Below, piece by piece: positions 1 through 6,585 of a DNA stretch of 64,000 bases; positions within the stretch are counted from its first letter, which is position 1, and every line of letters begins with the position of its first letter. The notes under the pieces are model-generated. The model saw nothing but the letters and a program-made list of their open reading frames with translations, was not told the DNA's origin and searched no databases. Source of the DNA: Geminicoccaceae bacterium (GTDB taxonomy: Bacteria > Pseudomonadota > Alphaproteobacteria > Geminicoccales > Geminicoccaceae); contig JANQNY010000059.1 in NCBI GenBank assembly GCA_028279345.1, positions 1 to 64,000 of the forward strand, given 5' to 3'. Position numbers and translations under genes: made by a program.

Positions 1-987
1 CTCCAGCGCCGCGCGGATCGCCGGCAGCACCTCGTCCTTGGCCTGCTGAACGAGCGCCGGGACCACGCCGGCAGCCTCACCCACGGCGTCGAGCCAGGCG
101 GCCGTGCCCTCTCGGCCTACCGGCGCGGACGGCACGATCGGCCGTCCCGCTTGCTCGAACTCGCGGAAGCTCGCCCGGTAGAAGGGATGCAGGCCGGCCA
201 CGACGCGGCCGTCCAGCGCGCCATAGAGCTCACGCCATTCGCGGGTGGGTACGCTCGGCCCCACGGCCAGGCCCATCGGCCGCAGCATCATGGCGATGCC
301 CACCGGATCGGCCGGAAAGAGTTCGCCGACGAGCGTCACCGTCGGCACGGCACTCCTGCCGCCGCGCGGCGCAGCGACGGGGCCCTGCTCCGCCTCCTTG
401 CGGGCGAAGCGCAGCATGGCAGCGGCGAGCACGTCCTTCGCCTCGGCATGGGTCGGTACGCCGAAGCCTGGAACGTCGATCGGAATGACGCGCACGCCGT
501 TGATCTCGGCGGGCAGCTTCTGGATCGGCACGCCCGAGGCCGTGGGCACGCAGAGGTTGGTGACGACGATGGCGTCGTAGCGCTCGGGATCGGCAAGGCC
601 GTGGACCGCGTCCCGGATATCCTCGTAGAGCTTGCCGGTGACCAGCGTCTCGGAATTGAAGGGGACGTAGCCCACCGTGCGCCTTGCACCGTAGAAGTGC
701 GAGGTGAAGCTGAGCCCGTAGACGCAGCAGGCGGAGCCCGAGAGCACGGTCGCCGTACGGCGCATTCTGAGCCCTACGCGCAGCGAGCCGAAGGCCGGGC
801 ACATGCTCTGCGGCTGGTCGTGCGGGCCCTTGGGGTAGTCGGCTTCGAACCGCTCGAGCACCTTGCTCTTGCCGGCCTGGCGCGCCGCCTCGTCGAGCAC
901 CGCCTTGCCACCGTGGCAGCCACGCGCGTCGGCCACCGTCGGGGCCTCCGGGACGCTACCTGCTGGATGGGTGTAGACGACGGTCAT
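1..987 (-). CDS. bchY: Chlorophyllide a reductase subunit Y (partial)
   Basis: This is the N-terminal 329 residues of BchY; the gene runs off the left edge, so the C-terminal third is missing. With BchZ it forms the catalytic component of chlorophyllide a oxidoreductase, a nitrogenase-like enzyme that reduces ring B on the way to bacteriochlorophyll a. The protein starts MTVVYTHPAG, and cysteines that could ligate the iron-sulfur cluster appear in the early GCHGGK, MCPAFG and ACCVYG segments. The ATG at 987 is preceded by GGGAG and lies 9 bases after the bchX stop, so it is translated from the bchC-bchX-bchY mRNA. bchZ is expected just outside the window. Confidence 0.93.
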   Translation of the reverse strand, partial: MTVVYTHPAGSVPEAPTVADARGCHGGKAVLDEAARQAGKSKVLERFEADYPKGPHDQPQSMCPAFGSLRVGLRMRRTATVLSGSACCVYGLSFTSHFYGARRTVGYVPFNSETLVTGKLYEDIRDAVHGLADPERYDAIVVTNLCVPTASGVPIQKLPAEINGVRVIPIDVPGFGVPTHAEAKDVLAAAMLRFARKEAEQGPVAAPRGGRSAVPTVTLVGELFPADPVGIAMMLRPMGLAVGPSVPTREWRELYGALDGRVVAGLHPFYRASFREFEQAGRPIVPSAPVGREGTAAWLDAVGEAAGVVPALVQQAKDEVLPAIRAALE

Positions 988-996
988 CAGGCTCCC

Positions 997-1989
997 TCAG
1001 ACCTCGTCGTAGATGACTTCGAGCGACGGCTTGGGCGCGTAGGTGACGCCGCAGAGATCGGCGAAACTCGCCGGCTGCAGCACCACGTTGCGACCGACGT
1101 CGTCACCCTTGAACAGGCCCAGAAGCGCGTCCTGGCCGAGCGGCGTGGGCGGCACTGGCGGTGCGACCGCGACCTGCTCGCCCAACGCCTCGAACAACGG
1201 CGCCCAGCGCCCGCCGGGACGGCCAATGATCTCGTAGTTGGCGCTCTTGCGACGGATGTCCTCGTCGGCCGGAATGGCGGCGAGGACCGGAATGCCGGCC
1301 GCGGCGGCGAAGGCCTCGGCCTCGCCCGTGCCGTCGTCCTTGTTCACGACGAGGCCCGCGACGCCGACATTGCCGCCCAGCTTCCTGAAGTACCGGACCG
1401 CCGAGCAGACATTGTTGGCGACGTAGAGCGACTGCAGGTCGTTCGCCGCAACGACGATGACCTTCTGGCACATGTCACGGGCGATCGGCAGCCCGAAGCC
1501 ACCGCAGACCACGTCGCCCAAGAAGTCGAGCAGTACGTAGTCAACATCCCAGTCGTGGAAGCCCAGCTTCTCCAAGAGCTCGAAGCCGTGGATGATGCCG
1601 CGTCCGCCGCAGCCGCGGCCGACCTCGGGCCCACCCAGCTCCATCGCGAAGACGCCGTCGCGCTTGAAGCAGACATCCTCGATCGCGACCTCCTCGCCCG
1701 CCTGCTTCTTGAGCGACGAGGTCTCGATGATCGTGGGGCAGCTCCGGCCGCCGAAGAGCAGCGAGGTGGTGTCGCTCTTGGGATCGCAACCGATCAGGAG
1801 AACGCGCTTGCCCTGCTGCGCGAGCATGTAGGAGAGGTTCGCGAGCGTGAAGCTCTTGCCGATCCCGCCCTTGCCGTAGATCGCGATGATCTCCGTGGTC
1901 CGCGTGCCGGCGTCCGTGCCAACCTCCGCATCAGGCGACGCTTCGTGTGGCGGGCGCTCGAGCGTGGTCGTGGCGGACGGGAGGGTCAT
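997..1989 (-). CDS. bchX: Chlorophyllide a reductase iron protein subunit X
   Basis: BchX is the NifH-like ATPase dimer that passes electrons from ferredoxin to BchYZ in bacteriochlorophyll synthesis. The 330-residue product carries the P-loop GKGGIGKS at about residues 39-46, the ADP-sensing DPKSDTT segment, and the two cluster cysteines in GRGCGGRG and VVCGGFG, as the family requires. Family proteins are about 330 residues. The frame remains open upstream, but the ATG at 1989 is chosen because it overlaps the bchC stop in an ATGA arrangement and gives the normal length. The N-terminal 30 residues are a low-complexity extension typical of BchX compared with BchL. Confidence 0.96.
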   Translation of the reverse strand: MTLPSATTTLERPPHEASPDAEVGTDAGTRTTEIIAIYGKGGIGKSFTLANLSYMLAQQGKRVLLIGCDPKSDTTSLLFGGRSCPTIIETSSLKKQAGEEVAIEDVCFKRDGVFAMELGGPEVGRGCGGRGIIHGFELLEKLGFHDWDVDYVLLDFLGDVVCGGFGLPIARDMCQKVIVVAANDLQSLYVANNVCSAVRYFRKLGGNVGVAGLVVNKDDGTGEAEAFAAAAGIPVLAAIPADEDIRRKSANYEIIGRPGGRWAPLFEALGEQVAVAPPVPPTPLGQDALLGLFKGDDVGRNVVLQPASFADLCGVTYAPKPSLEVIYDEV

Positions 1990-2924
1990 GAGCTGGCTCT
2001 CCACTCGAGGATCATCTTGAGGCAGTCGGGTGCGGTAAAGGCGGTCCGGTAAGCAGCCTCGGCAGCGTGGGCCGGGCTCCGGTGCGTGATGAGGCCATCC
2101 AGCGACAACGCACCTTGCGCAACCAATGTCTGCACCGCTGCGAGGTCCGCGTCCTGCCATTCGGCGGCGACGCGCAGGCGCGCTTCGCGCATGAACGCAG
2201 GCGGGAACGCGAAGGCGACGGGCGCTGCATAGAATCCCGCAAGCACCACCTCACCCCGCGGCTGCAGGCGGGCGATCAGTGCGTCCAGGACCGCGGGGTC
2301 GCCGCTCACATCGCAGATCCGCCGGTAGTCGCGGCGGGCATCTTCCTCGGGTGCCAGGACTTCGTAGCCGGTGGCGCCGCCGCGGCGATCAGCCGCCTGC
2401 TCCCACACCACGGGAGGCTCGCCCCCGAGTGCGACGGACGTGCGCGCGATCAGCCGCCCCAACGCGCCGTGACCGACGACCAGCTCCGGCAAACCGTCGA
2501 CGACCGCGTGATGCGCCGTGGCCGCGAGCGCCAGAAGGGTCGCCTGATCCGCGAGAGGCTCGGGAACGCGCCTGACGCGAGCGGCCGGCACGACGAGATG
2601 CGAGGCGGCGCCGCCGAAGAGACCACGCACCTCGCCGAAACAGGCGGCACCAGGAACGAACACGCGCTCGCCCGGCGCCAGGTCGGTCTCGGCGCCAGCC
2701 TCCACCACGCGGCCGACGCTCTCGTAGCCTGGCACCAATGGATAGCCCATGCCGGGGAAAGGCGGCATGCGACCGCTCCAGAGCAGCCGCTCGGTGCCGG
2801 TGCTGATGCCGCTCCATTCGACCTCGACGACGATGTCGCCAGCGGCGGCGGGCTCCAGTTGCAGAGCCCTGAGAGCCAGCTTTTCCGGCCTTTCGATCAC
2901 GACGGCAGTCGCCTGCACGTGCAC
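1986..2924 (-). CDS. bchC: Bacteriochlorophyllide a dehydrogenase (3-hydroxyethyl oxidation)
   Basis: BchC oxidises 3-hydroxyethyl bacteriochlorophyllide a to bacteriochlorophyllide a, next to the chlorophyllide reductase step encoded by bchXYZ. The 312-residue product is a medium-chain dehydrogenase-like protein with the conserved N-terminal SGISTGTERLLWSG segment, the PGYESVGRV segment and a nucleotide-binding glycine motif (VVGHGALG). Length matches the family. It is the first gene of bchC-bchX-bchY and has its own promoter with two PpsR-type palindromes (2972-3015). Its 3' end overlaps bchX by 4 bases. Confidence 0.95.
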   Translation of the reverse strand: MHVQATAVVIERPEKLALRALQLEPAAAGDIVVEVEWSGISTGTERLLWSGRMPPFPGMGYPLVPGYESVGRVVEAGAETDLAPGERVFVPGAACFGEVRGLFGGAASHLVVPAARVRRVPEPLADQATLLALAATAHHAVVDGLPELVVGHGALGRLIARTSVALGGEPPVVWEQAADRRGGATGYEVLAPEEDARRDYRRICDVSGDPAVLDALIARLQPRGEVVLAGFYAAPVAFAFPPAFMREARLRVAAEWQDADLAAVQTLVAQGALSLDGLITHRSPAHAAEAAYRTAFTAPDCLKMILEWRASS

Positions 2925-2971
2925 CTCCTGACCTCTTCCGAAGGGCCCGGAACAGCCGCCGGTCGAGGCTT

Positions 2972-3015
2972 TGTCAGTCTAACTTGACGGAAAAAGGTGT
3001 CAAGATTGACTTACA
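2972..3015 (-). promoter_or_regulatory. bchC promoter with tandem PpsR/CrtJ palindromes
   Basis: Two TGT-N12-ACA type palindromes lie in tandem: 2998-3015 is a perfect match and 2972-2989 matches except for a final G in place of A. They are separated by 8 bases. On the minus strand a perfect -35 TTGACA (2998-3003) and a -10 TAGACT (2976-2981) are spaced 16 bases apart, so each palindrome covers one promoter element. Two CrtJ sites 8 bases apart over the bchC -35 and -10 are the arrangement described in Rhodobacter capsulatus. Aerobic repression by PpsR/CrtJ is therefore inferred. The site overlaps the crtF stop codon. Confidence 0.8.
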
Positions 3016-4183
3016 TACCGTCCAGGCGGCTCGCGGCCGGTCGGGCGACCAGAATCCGCACCAGGAGGGGGGTCCGCGTGCGCCACATCCGACCCTCGTC
3101 GAACCCGGCTGCGACGAGCAGCTCACCGAGCTCGCTCGGGCTGCGCGCACGCCCCGAACCCATCGCGCACAGGTAGAACCCGAAATAGGCTGCACCGATC
3201 GGTTCGGCTCCGCGCGTCTCGGCCATCGGCTCGGCGATGAGCAGCACGCCATCCTCGGCGATCGACGCCCGGATGGCGCGCAGAAGCGTGAGCACGTCGT
3301 CGTCGTCGTGATCGTGCAGGACCCGCACTAGCGAAACGAGATCGGCACCGGCCGGCAGGCCGTCACGGAAGAAGTCGCCGCCGTTTACCTCGGCATCCAC
3401 GCCGGCCTCCTTGAGCCGCGCGCGGGCGCGCTCTGCAACGGCCGGCAGGTCGAACAAGCCAAGCTGGAGGCGTGGCGCCGCAAGTGCGACCGCTTGAAGG
3501 AAGGCTCCCTCGCCGCCGCCGACGTCCAGGAGGCGGCGGTGGCGAGCGAACGGGTAGGCCGCGATCACCTCACTGGCGATGAAGGCCTGTGATGCGGCCA
3601 TCAGCGCGCTGTAGGAGGCGACGGCGTCCTCCGCTAGGCCGTCCGGCTGACCTGCGGCGGCGTAGCCCCAATAGTCTTGTAGCTGCCGCGATTGGGAGGT
3701 GCCCCGCAGCAGCGCCAGCGGATCGGCGAGGTCCGCGTAGAGGAGCGCATGGTGCTCGACCATCGCCTTGATGCCGGCATTGTTGACCATCGCGGCCCCG
3801 AGGGCGCCCAGGCCGATGCGGCTGCCGCTCCGCCGCTCCAGAAGATCGAGCGAGATGGCTGCATCGACCAGCCGGCGCATGCCGTCGGCGGGCATGTCGA
3901 ACCGCTGCGCCAGCTCGTCGACCGTGGCAGGCGCCGCCGCCACCTCCTCGAACAGACGCAGCTTCACGCAGGCATAGAGCACTTGGGAGTAGACGAAGCC
4001 GGCGCAGAGATCGAACAACGAACGCACCCGGCGCCGGACGATCGGCCGCGTCGGCGGGAATGCCGTGGCCAAGCGCTGGAAGGTCTCACTGGTGAGCAGA
4101 CGATCGCGCCAGAGCACGGCTCGATCACGCCAGCCGAGCGTGTTGCCGGCCGAAGAGCCTTCAGGCGCTGCCGCCATCGCCAC
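3011..4183 (-). CDS. crtF: Demethylspheroidene O-methyltransferase
   Basis: CrtF methylates the 1-hydroxyl of carotenoids, giving the methoxy groups of spheroidene or spirilloxanthin. The 390-residue protein has an N-terminal dimerisation/winged-helix part (VDELAQRFDMPADGMRRLVDA, about residues 88-108) and a C-terminal SAM-binding domain with LLDVGGGEGAFL at about residue 215, then DLPAV and RVLHDHDDD as in O-methyltransferases of the plant/hydroxyindole type. It starts 9 bases after crtE and its end runs into the bchC promoter, the usual crtE-crtF-bchCXYZ order of purple bacteria. Confidence 0.93.
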   Translation of the reverse strand: MAMAAAPEGSSAGNTLGWRDRAVLWRDRLLTSETFQRLATAFPPTRPIVRRRVRSLFDLCAGFVYSQVLYACVKLRLFEEVAAAPATVDELAQRFDMPADGMRRLVDAAISLDLLERRSGSRIGLGALGAAMVNNAGIKAMVEHHALLYADLADPLALLRGTSQSRQLQDYWGYAAAGQPDGLAEDAVASYSALMAASQAFIASEVIAAYPFARHRRLLDVGGGEGAFLQAVALAAPRLQLGLFDLPAVAERARARLKEAGVDAEVNGGDFFRDGLPAGADLVSLVRVLHDHDDDDVLTLLRAIRASIAEDGVLLIAEPMAETRGAEPIGAAYFGFYLCAMGSGRARSPSELGELLVAAGFDEGRMWRTRTPLLVRILVARPAASRLDGM

Positions 4184-4192
4184 GGGCCAACC

Positions 4193-5062
4193 TCACGCCG
4201 CGGCGCGACTGAGCTGCCGCGGCACCAGCCGCGTCGCCTCCGCTTCCACCAAGGCGCGCAACTCCTCACCGCGCGCACATGGCGGGATGCCGGCAACGGC
4301 CGCCTTCACCAGGCTGCGGAGGCGGGAAAGCGCACCCTCGACGCCAAGTTCGCCCACGGCACTCGGTCGCCCGAGCAGCGCGTCCTGGCCCACGGGCTTG
4401 CCGAGCTCGGCCATGTCCGCCGCAACATCCTTGAGGTCGTCCGCCACCTGATAGGCCTCTCCCAAGCGATCGCCCAGCACGCGCCAAGGACCGGGGTCGG
4501 CGCCCGCGGCAGCAGCTCCAGCCATGCACGCGGCAACGAAGAGTGCGCCGGTCTTCTCGCGCTGATACTCGACGAGCGCTGCGTCGGGCTCGCTTTCCCA
4601 GGCTTGGCCCGCAACGATGCCGGACGGCACGCCGACGGCGGCACTGACGATTTCGACTAGGGCCGGCAGCCTGGCCGGCGCCTTGCCGGCGCAGCGCACC
4701 AATGTCTGAAAGGCCAAGATGATCAGAGCATCGCCAGCCAAGACGGCAAGCGGCTCGCCGAACGCGCGGTGCACGGAGGGACGGCCACGGCGGAGCGCCG
4801 CGTCGTCGAAGCAGGGTAGATCATCGTGGACGAGCGACGCACAGTGAAGAAGCTCGAGCGCGGTCGCCGCCCCGTCGGCCAGCGCTGGCTGGTCGTCGCC
4901 ACAAGCGTAGGCCACCGCCAGGCAGAGGCGCGGGCGGATGCGGGCACCACCAGGAAACACGGCATGACGCAATGCAGCCCCAAGGCGCGGCGGGCAACCC
5001 GGCACGTCGGCGTGCTCGACGGCAGTCAGCAGGGCCTGCTCGATCCGCGTCGACGCCACCAT
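4193..5062 (-). CDS. crtE: Geranylgeranyl diphosphate synthase
   Basis: CrtE condenses farnesyl and isopentenyl diphosphate to geranylgeranyl diphosphate, the precursor for carotenoids and for the bacteriochlorophyll tail. The 289-residue protein shows the first aspartate-rich motif DDLPCFDD, the second motif DDLKD, and the substrate segments GGARIRPRL and GQAWESE in the expected order for short-chain prenyltransferases. A GTG at 5065 immediately precedes the chosen ATG at 5062; the GGGAGG about 6 bases upstream favours the ATG. It is the first gene of crtE-crtF and is divergent from crtC. Confidence 0.93.
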   Translation of the reverse strand: MVASTRIEQALLTAVEHADVPGCPPRLGAALRHAVFPGGARIRPRLCLAVAYACGDDQPALADGAATALELLHCASLVHDDLPCFDDAALRRGRPSVHRAFGEPLAVLAGDALIILAFQTLVRCAGKAPARLPALVEIVSAAVGVPSGIVAGQAWESEPDAALVEYQREKTGALFVAACMAGAAAAGADPGPWRVLGDRLGEAYQVADDLKDVAADMAELGKPVGQDALLGRPSAVGELGVEGALSRLRSLVKAAVAGIPPCARGEELRALVEAEATRLVPRQLSRAAA

Positions 5063-5111
5063 CACCAGCCTCCCATGCCTGCGCCCGGCGTGGACGCACC
5101 GTAAAGCAGGA

Positions 5112-5143
5112 TTGTCACATCAGACTGTCAATTTATATGGACA
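5112..5143. promoter_or_regulatory. Divergent crtE/crtC promoter with PpsR palindrome
   Basis: A perfect TGT-N12-ACA palindrome occupies 5126-5143 between the divergent crtE and crtC genes. On the minus strand the palindrome contains a consensus -35 TTGACA (5126-5131) for crtE. On the plus strand a TTGTCA at 5112-5117 could be the crtC -35, with a TATATG-like -10 inside the palindrome. A second, degenerate TGT-N12-TCA overlaps at 5113-5130. One PpsR dimer could therefore shut both genes. The -10 for crtE is not clear. Confidence 0.7.
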
Positions 5144-5219
5144 TCCTACTGGTGCCGCAATGAGCAATTCGGGGTGCTCTCCCTAAGCCATTCTAAGCGC
5201 ACCGGCAGGAGCGTGCGCC

Positions 5220-6188
5220 ATGGACCAAGGCCCCGAAACCGATGCTGCGGAAGCTTTGAGCCGCGGCCGGCCGCGGTTCGACCTGACCCCGCCACCGGGC
5301 GGCTATCTTTGGTGGTATGTCGACGGGATCAGCGAGGATGGCGCTGACGGGGTGACGCTCATCGCCATGATCGGCAGCGTCTTCTCTCCCTATTACGCCT
5401 GGGCCGGCCGCCAGAACCCGCTCGATCACGTGGCCCTCAACGTTGCCGTCTATGGTGGTGCCGGCAAGCGCTGGGCGGTGACCGAGCGCCGCCGTAGCGC
5501 CCTCGAGCAGCACGCCGACGCGGTGCGCATCGGCCCGAGCCGGCTCCGCTGGGAGGGCGATACGCTCATCGTCGATATCGACGAGCGGGCAGCACCCATC
5601 CCCCTGCCGATCCGCGGGCAGGTGCGGCTCACGCCTGCGGCCCTCACCGATCATCGGGTCGAGCTCGATGCCCATGGCCGTCATCGCTGGTGGCCGGTTG
5701 CACCTTGCGCGCACATCGAGGTGGACTTCGAGGCGCCGCGCCGACGCTGGCAGGGCGTCGGCTACCTAGACAGCAATGACGGCGATGCGCCCCTCGAGGA
5801 CGACTTCACCGGCTGGCACTGGTCGCGCCTGCACGTCGGCGGCGACAGTGTGATCTTCTACGATTCCACCTACAGGCACGGTGGCGGCCAACTCCTGGCG
5901 CTACGCTGCCACCCAGACGGCCACGTCGAGGAGGCACCGGCGCTGCCACGTGTGGCCCTGCCCACGACCGGCTGGCGCATCACCCGCGCCACGCGTGCAA
6001 CGGGCCCGGACGATCCTCGCATCCGCGCGACCTGGGAGGACACCCCCTTCTACGCCCGCTCGCTTCTCGAGACACGGATCGACGGCGAGCCGGCGCTCGG
6101 CATGCACGAGAGCCTCGACCTCGATCGCTTCGCGAACCGCTGGGTTCGCCTGTTGCTGCCGTTCCGCATGCCGCGGAAGCTTCGCTGA
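5220..6188 (+). CDS. crtC: Carotenoid 1,2-hydratase (hydroxyneurosporene synthase)
   Basis: CrtC adds water across the terminal 1,2 double bond of acyclic carotenoids (neurosporene, lycopene), producing the hydroxyl later methylated by CrtF. The 322-residue product carries family blocks GGYLWWYVDG, IGSVFSPYYAW, NVAVYG, GYLDSNDG and FTGWHWSRL. An AGGAG lies about 10 bases before the ATG. It diverges from crtE over a PpsR site. In many phototrophs crtD follows crtC; here a DUF1244 housekeeping gene follows, so the cluster seems to end at this gene. Confidence 0.94.
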   Translation: MDQGPETDAAEALSRGRPRFDLTPPPGGYLWWYVDGISEDGADGVTLIAMIGSVFSPYYAWAGRQNPLDHVALNVAVYGGAGKRWAVTERRRSALEQHADAVRIGPSRLRWEGDTLIVDIDERAAPIPLPIRGQVRLTPAALTDHRVELDAHGRHRWWPVAPCAHIEVDFEAPRRRWQGVGYLDSNDGDAPLEDDFTGWHWSRLHVGGDSVIFYDSTYRHGGGQLLALRCHPDGHVEEAPALPRVALPTTGWRITRATRATGPDDPRIRATWEDTPFYARSLLETRIDGEPALGMHESLDLDRFANRWVRLLLPFRMPRKLR

Positions 6189-6273: not shown

Positions 6274-6585
6274 ATGACGTCCGACATCGACCCGCAAACA
6301 CGCCTCGAGCTCGAGGCCGCAGCGTTCCGGCGTCTCGTGGCGCATCTCCGCGAGCGGAATGACGTGCAGAACATCGACCTCATGAATCTCGCGGGCTTCT
6401 GCCGGAACTGCCTGTCGAAATGGTATGCCGCCGCGGCCGGCGAGCACGGCCTGGACCTCGACTACGAGGCCGCGCGCGAGATCATCTACGGCGAGCCCTA
6501 CGCGAGCTGGAAGGCGAAGCACCAGACGGAGGCGACGGCGGAGCAGCAGGCAGCCTTCGCGAAGTCTCATGGCGGGCACGACTGA
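6274..6585 (+). CDS. DUF1244 family protein
   Basis: A 103-residue soluble protein of the DUF1244 family, widespread in alpha- and gammaproteobacteria and of unknown function. The conserved centre GFCRNCLSKWY and the C-terminal GEPYASWKAKHQ segment are present. The frame is open far upstream through crtC, but the ATG at 6274 is chosen because of the GGAGGGG just before it and because it gives the usual family length. The paired cysteines might bind a metal, which is inference. The stop lies 4 bases from the convergent sirtuin stop. Confidence 0.88.
   Translation: MTSDIDPQTRLELEAAAFRRLVAHLRERNDVQNIDLMNLAGFCRNCLSKWYAAAAGEHGLDLDYEAAREIIYGEPYASWKAKHQTEATAEQQAAFAKSHGGHD

Follow-up and report, generated by a model that had tools for sequence, protein, structure and literature searches.

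The window analysed here comprises the first 64,000 nucleotides of contig JANQNY010000059.1 from a Geminicoccaceae bacterium (GenBank assembly GCA_028279345.1). Near position 1 the minus strand encodes bchC, bchX and a probable bchY, and upstream of bchC lies a tandem operator of PpsR/CrtJ type that overlaps a predicted promoter (Table 1). Read on the minus strand from 3015 to 2972, towards bchC, the element is TGTAAGTCAATCTTGACA, then CCTTTTTC, then CGTCAAGTTAGACTGACA: two TGT-N12-ACA palindromes separated by 8 bp (2990-2997), with the bchC start 47 bp beyond the lower one. The initial annotation had placed one perfect and one near-perfect palindrome over the -35 and -10 of bchC. Positions and overlaps were confirmed: the upper palindrome contains TTGACA, the lower contains TAGACT, and 16 bp separate the two hexamers. 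The single mismatch is in the lower palindrome, which reads TGT-N12-ACG on the plus strand and CGT-N12-ACA on the minus strand. TTGACA-16-TAGACT was also the sole sigma-70-like promoter returned by a scan of positions 1900-5300 (10/12; mean of 0.2 in shuffles). The upstream crtF-like frame (3011-4183, minus strand) ends inside the operator, its stop codon being the TAA within the upper TGTAA.

The tandem design of the bchC promoter has been known since the 1990s, and the Rhodobacter capsulatus bchC promoter with CrtJ is said to have been treated by Ponnampalam, Elsen and Bauer in 1998. At the footprinted R. capsulatus bchC promoter, the upper site is placed at -30 to -47, the lower site at -4 to -21, and the gap at -22 to -29 (PMC5362033). 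The arrangement in the window matches these positions, as the initial annotation had proposed: two TGT-N12-ACA palindromes with an 8-bp gap lie before bchC, the upper over the -35 and the lower over the -10. Because the R. capsulatus lower palindrome spans -4 to -21, we predict the transcription start at 2968. Both genomes also carry crtJ/ppsR and aerR genes. Unlike its R. capsulatus counterpart, the lower palindrome here carries one arm mismatch; it is the imperfect member of its pair, just as the R. capsulatus lower site is the weaker member (PMC5362033). Degenerate arms in an 8-bp spaced pair are also found at crtI of Rubrivivax gelatinosus (TGa-N12-ACA and cGT-N12-ACA; PMC4452267). That system differs in that other promoters are involved (crtI, pucB) and in that its PpsR preserves the helix-turn-helix (HTH) cysteine (Cys436), although redox control at 8 bp is slight (PMC4452267).

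Single palindromes carry little information. TGT-N12-ACA occurs 8 times in the window (4.5 expected) and 318 times genome-wide, close to the 293 of a reversed control, and single sites were therefore rejected as evidence. The pair behaves differently from shuffled sequence. In the 200 bp upstream of bchC the spacer-8 pair scores 11/12 core bases, whereas the maximum in 5000 dinucleotide shuffles was 10 (reached in 3/5000); when any spacer from 4 to 12 was allowed, 1000 shuffles likewise peaked at 10 (3/1000). Pairs with at most one mismatch occur at two places in the 4.44 Mb genome, bchC and C77:113100, the latter inside a long open frame; the reversed control gave one. A chance origin of the pair was rejected on the basis of the shuffles, the genome count with its reversed control, and conservation across bchC loci.

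Conservation was evaluated in 90 bchC loci, of which 10 came from whole genomes (this one and nine relatives) and 80 were named loci, the best 80 of at least 557 confirmed relatives of the BchC alignment, proteobacterial by title. One locus (L076) duplicates another (L004); it was kept in the 90-locus count and excluded from the 89-genome table, the 81-locus profile, and the 81-locus hexamer control described below. A spacer-8 pair with at least 10/12 core bases is present upstream of bchC in 82/90 loci and one with at least 11/12 in 64/90. Other spacers from 0 to 20 gave at least 10/12 in at most 15/90 loci; for spacer 8, mononucleotide shuffling left about 1/90. In a profile of the 81 loci with at least 10/12, spacer positions carry 0.05-0.34 bits each, and G2, T3, A16, and C17 of both palindromes carry 1.8-2.0. 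The outer arm bases vary more, with the consensus base found at upper T1 in 64, upper A18 in 70, lower T1 in 35, and lower A18 in 74 of these loci; the first base of the lower palindrome is T in 35, C in 21, A in 20, and G in 5. The promoter hexamers are also strongly conserved: the first five bases of the -35 are identical in 78-81 of the 81 loci, and the -10 has T in 76, A in 80, and the last T in 77.

Arm conservation in this profile is partly built in, given that loci were picked for at least 10/12 and the register favoured TA and TTGACA. We therefore realigned the loci on the promoter hexamers alone, using the 81 loci with at least 8/9 hexamer bases. The arm bases remained: upper G2 in 80 and T3 in 77, and lower G2 in 77, T3 in 79, A16 in 78, and C17 in 80. 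In this alignment the first base of the lower palindrome is T in 32, C in 22, A in 19, and G in 8 loci. The C found there in the present genome is thus ordinary, since this base varies freely across loci. At ten loci (L011, L013, L041, L044, L048, L054, L061, L071, L080, and L105) a third palindrome-like 18-mer lies 6-7 bp upstream of the upper site, and at L087 such an 18-mer follows the lower site after 7 bp. Some lineages possibly have three-site operators.

The genome encodes the expected regulator. We identified a single ppsR (485 bits versus a cut-off of 275), so the case that the initial annotation named as refuting its reading, a genome lacking ppsR, does not apply. In a set of 60 genomes that includes this one, bchC exceeded its cut-off in 10, and ppsR exceeded its own in every one of these; outside these 10, G025 has a fragment of ppsR and lacks a bchC above the cut-off. 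The gene was found in 75/80 named genomes (37/40 and 38/40). It was not detected in the other five, which are three metagenome-assembled genomes (MAGs; L059, L061, and L115) and the isolates Rhodocyclus gracilis and Magnetospirillum molischianum. The two isolates retain the promoter hexamers (TTGACT-16-TAGACT and TTGACA-16-TACACT, respectively), and their lower palindromes score 0 and 2 of 6. Across 89 genomes, the pair is present in 79 and absent in 5 with ppsR, and present in 2 and absent in 3 without it (Fisher p = 0.0045, uncorrected for relatedness).

The less expected feature is the PpsR protein itself, which lacks the cysteine by which Rhodobacter PpsR feels oxygen. Its only cysteines are at residues 38 and 65, near the N terminus. 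We aligned 69 PpsR sequences (best matches) out of the 84 ppsR-bearing genomes, excluding a fragment from a genome without bchC (L124) and a duplicate (L161). The HTH position in question appears to correspond to R. capsulatus Cys420, being the sole HTH column with Cys in at least 8 rows of an alignment that has CrtJ itself outside it. At this position there are 58 Cys, 7 Tyr, 3 Ser, and 1 Ala, and the present protein has Tyr. The aligned part of R. sphaeroides PpsR (4hh2) contains a single cysteine, probably equivalent to Cys249, and opposite it the present protein has Ile. Oxygen acts on Cys249 and Cys420 in R. capsulatus (PMC4452267); unlike CrtJ, this PpsR has neither. Direct thiol sensing of oxygen by this protein is therefore unlikely, given the Tyr at the HTH cysteine and the Ile at the PAS-region cysteine. 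The congener (G001) likewise has Tyr at the HTH position, and the matched part of its PpsR is free of cysteine; a neighbouring genome (G010) has Tyr with three cysteines kept elsewhere. Each of the three genomes has one PpsR over the cut-off.

Tyr at this position also occurs in second PpsR copies of Rhodopseudomonas and relatives, which we take to be PpsR2-like. In the PpsR tree, whose bootstrap had not settled, the three sole-copy proteins cluster (93/92, not among the starred branches) within the ordinary PpsR branch, apart from four other Tyr rows, which share another branch with a single Cys row (100/100). The present Tyr thus differs from the two-copy types in lying in the ordinary branch and in a sole copy. 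The six genomes examined for a second copy each have two PpsRs, and Tyr was found in two further copies beyond the tree. Four of these genomes (G063, G129, G125, and G119) pair a Tyr copy with a Ser copy; in the other two (G060 and G102) the copy other than the Tyr one has Cys. The HTH cysteine is replaced by Ser at L173, L176, and L182 (Rhodopseudomonas), L205, and L208; in Rhodopseudomonas faecalis (G128) the PpsR with Ser is the only copy. No account of a sole PpsR with Tyr in place of the HTH cysteine was found in the literature searched, coverage of which was partial and left subscription journals mostly outside.

An AerR-like gene encoding a B12-binding domain lies directly upstream of ppsR, and this locus adjoins frames read as bch genes. 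The protein carries the sequence EQHGFG at residue 178, which fits the ExHxxG cobalamin motif of the AerR type (PMC6199135). A frame next to ppsR with this motif is present in all three genomes with a sole Tyr-type PpsR (EQHGFG here, EQHSFG in G001 and G010); the B12 domain search, which found the domain, covered the frame of the present genome. We found no match to PHY (bacteriophytochrome) or BLUF (AppA-like) domains in this genome, LOV and other light sensors not being searched for, and a PHY- or BLUF-domain light input was dropped. On sequence grounds, the leading candidate for the input to this PpsR is AerR with cobalamin, and light input via AerR is plausible.

Overall, a PpsR operator at the bchC promoter is well supported by these sequence comparisons, and the operator system itself is of an already known kind. 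We consider it very likely that 3015-2972 combines the promoter and operator of the bchC operon and that it is blocked by PpsR; release would be achieved mainly by the AerR-like B12 protein. In this mechanism bchX follows bchC, and bchY and bchZ would complete the transcript. RNA polymerase with the housekeeping sigma factor would use TTGACA-16-TAGACT from the predicted start site, and PpsR, presumably bound cooperatively to the two palindromes, would block the polymerase and repress transcription. PpsR would bind without a thiol switch, and release would be governed mainly by the neighbouring AerR-like protein in response to light and cobalamin, perhaps with indirect oxygen input; we infer these steps from the missing HTH cysteine of the sole PpsR. 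Loss of this cysteine need not abolish repression, since the Rubrivivax C436A variant kept aerobic repression (PMC4452267).

For the three genomes with a sole Tyr-type PpsR, a more tentative extension, about which we have some doubt, is that the protein is naturally redox-blind, with operators and AerR kept and B12-mediated light sensing as the main input. With its hydroxyl, the Tyr might mimic the oxidised (sulfenic) state, an effect reported for serine at the same site of CrtJ, and so lock the binding form. Constitutive binding of Tyr-type PpsR is a guess by analogy, made because Ser at the same position of R. capsulatus CrtJ (C420S) raises binding about 4-fold (PMC9144470).

Several observations weigh against PpsR control of this operator as proposed. 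The R. capsulatus C420A variant loses about 60-fold in binding (PMC9144470), so the Tyr could mean weak DNA binding. The upper 18-mer still scores 5/6 in both ppsR-less isolates, and the pair there is thus broken and not wholly erased. Among the three MAGs in which ppsR was not detected, L061 and L115 have the pair, and L059 has a 12/12 pair with a 9-bp gap. Incomplete bins may account for pairs without ppsR in MAGs. Conversely, five ppsR-bearing genomes lack a 10/12 pair: two MAGs (L038 and L053) score 9 with the geometry intact, and Thiorhodococcus drewsii (L047), Thiocystis violacea (L055), and a Phenylobacterium MAG (L085) have none. In the first two of these three, both purple sulfur bacteria, the 400 bp before bchC yielded no pair and no promoter of the usual type, and their promoter may have been rebuilt.

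Three other explanations were considered. PpsR could be an activator here, or both activator and repressor, which we regard as improbable though the best of the three. Activator roles are mentioned for Rubrivivax PpsR (PMC4452267), and the R. capsulatus AerR-CrtJ complex remains bound while bchC is on (PMC5362033); however, because the sites cover both the -35 and the -10, polymerase exclusion would fit best. Somewhat less probable again is a plain oxygen switch as in R. capsulatus, operating via PpsR thiol oxidation. The operator geometry equals that of R. capsulatus bchC, and this organism would profit from such a switch because its genome has bchE and another frame read as acsF (by reading only), which may allow pigment formation with and without oxygen. 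The cysteine content of its sole PpsR and of that of the congener argues against it, as does Rubrivivax PpsR, in which redox-dependent binding was lacking at 8-bp spacing and present at 9 bp (PMC4452267); an 8-bp spacing is thus no guarantee of redox-dependent binding. The initial prediction of oxygen- or light-repressed bchCXYZ accordingly divides, light via AerR staying plausible and textbook thiol-based oxygen sensing becoming unlikely. Finally, it is very improbable that nothing more than a strong sigma-70 promoter is conserved, with palindromes as by-products of TTGACA and TAnnnT, an idea favoured by the conservation of the hexamers themselves, the partly built-in arm conservation of the selected profile, and the upper 18-mer of the ppsR-less isolates, but opposed by the arm bases G2, T3, A16, and C17 kept in 77-80 of 81 loci in the hexamer-only register and by the same two isolates, which retain hexamers and spacing and lose the lower palindrome.

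Downstream of the operator, the bchC operon probably continues on another contig (C1), as C1 starts with frames read by eye as the end of bchY and bchZ, followed by reaction-centre genes; joining of the contigs would place these after the truncated bchY of the window. The true bchX start must lie within its open frame, since the family match starts only at residue 91. Upstream of the operator are genes with carotenoid-type names. The palindromes between crtE and crtC are offset by 13 bp, a geometry unlike that of bchC.

Table 1. Coordinates of the bchC promoter region, neighbouring genes, and the ppsR locus (window positions unless a contig is given)
Feature	Position	Strand	Basis and remarks
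Tandem PpsR/CrtJ-type operator, two TGT-N12-ACA 8 bp apart	2972..3015	-	Sequence, shuffles, conservation in bchC loci
Upper palindrome TGTAAGTCAATCTTGACA	2998..3015	-	Perfect TGT-N12-ACA; contains -35
Lower palindrome CGTCAAGTTAGACTGACA	2972..2989	-	One arm base off; -10 starts at its dyad centre
-35 hexamer TTGACA	2998..3003	-	Promoter scan; predicted, inside upper palindrome
-10 hexamer TAGACT, 16-bp spacer	2976..2981	-	Promoter scan; predicted, in lower palindrome
Predicted transcription start (+1)	2968	-	Carried over from R. capsulatus positions (lower palindrome -4 to -21), and sequence
bchC	1986..2924	-	TIGR01202, 441.9 bits (cut-off 291); GTG start, AGGAGG a few bases before
bchX open frame	997..2160	-	TIGR02016, 407.7 bits (cut-off 331)
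Probable bchY, downstream of bchX	1..987	-	Suggested by position and sequence; cut by contig edge
crtF-like O-methyltransferase, directly upstream of bchC	3011..4183	-	Weak TIGR02716, 37 bits, below cut-off 276; crtF name from position
crtE-like prenyl diphosphate synthase	4193..5065	-	NF045485 178 bits, NF045685 136 bits, both below cut-offs; name from position
Two overlapping PpsR-like palindromes between crtE and crtC	5113..5143		5113-5130 imperfect; 5126-5143 perfect TGT-N12-ACA
crtC-like carotenoid 1,2-hydratase	5220..6188	+	NF045922, 299.8 bits, below cut-off 400
AerR-like B12-binding gene	C19 38169-39071		Directly upstream of ppsR; PF02310, 51.8 bits (cut-off 32.1)
ppsR	G000:C19:39209-40651 (= L001 1405-2847)		HTH_8 and PAS domains present

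Other candidate sites were sought with an extended pattern, TGTMA-N8-TKACA, derived from bchC sites including the present one. Only two exact matches occur in the genome, the upper bchC palindrome and C49:6417-6434. With one mismatch there are 48 places (39 in a reversed control), so sites of this class are mostly chance; they include one before aerR (C19:38031), one before ppsR (C19:39088), one at C9:121947, and a match in the crtE-crtC gap (5113-5143). The C49 site has a one-mismatch partner at 6392-6409 with a 7-bp gap (the pair is L203 6392-6434). A frame read as pucB and, beyond it, a pucC-like frame (both names by reading) follow this pair, which lies on a different contig from the bch genes. 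Sediminicoccus sp. KRV36 has a similar bchC-plus-puc pattern of PpsR sites, and its ppaA and ppsR are next to bchFNBHLM; unlike here, its sites rest on a database motif search and expression data (PMC10949492). A PpsR-like palindrome was also seen at C9:121947-121964 (L202 7947-7964), about 120 bp before a 5-aminolevulinate (ALA)-synthase-like frame (122087-123331, plus strand, by reading), which suggests tetrapyrrole control.

The site confirms a known promoter design in another genome, and the geometry of this design is tightly kept across the 90 bchC loci. In the two ppsR-less isolates the lower palindrome is gone and the promoter is kept. In the present genome, operator and sensor appear to be naturally separated, in that the operator persists although the sole PpsR would have no thiol switch. 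This separation lets one ask which signal, oxygen or light with cobalamin, the bchC operator was kept for.
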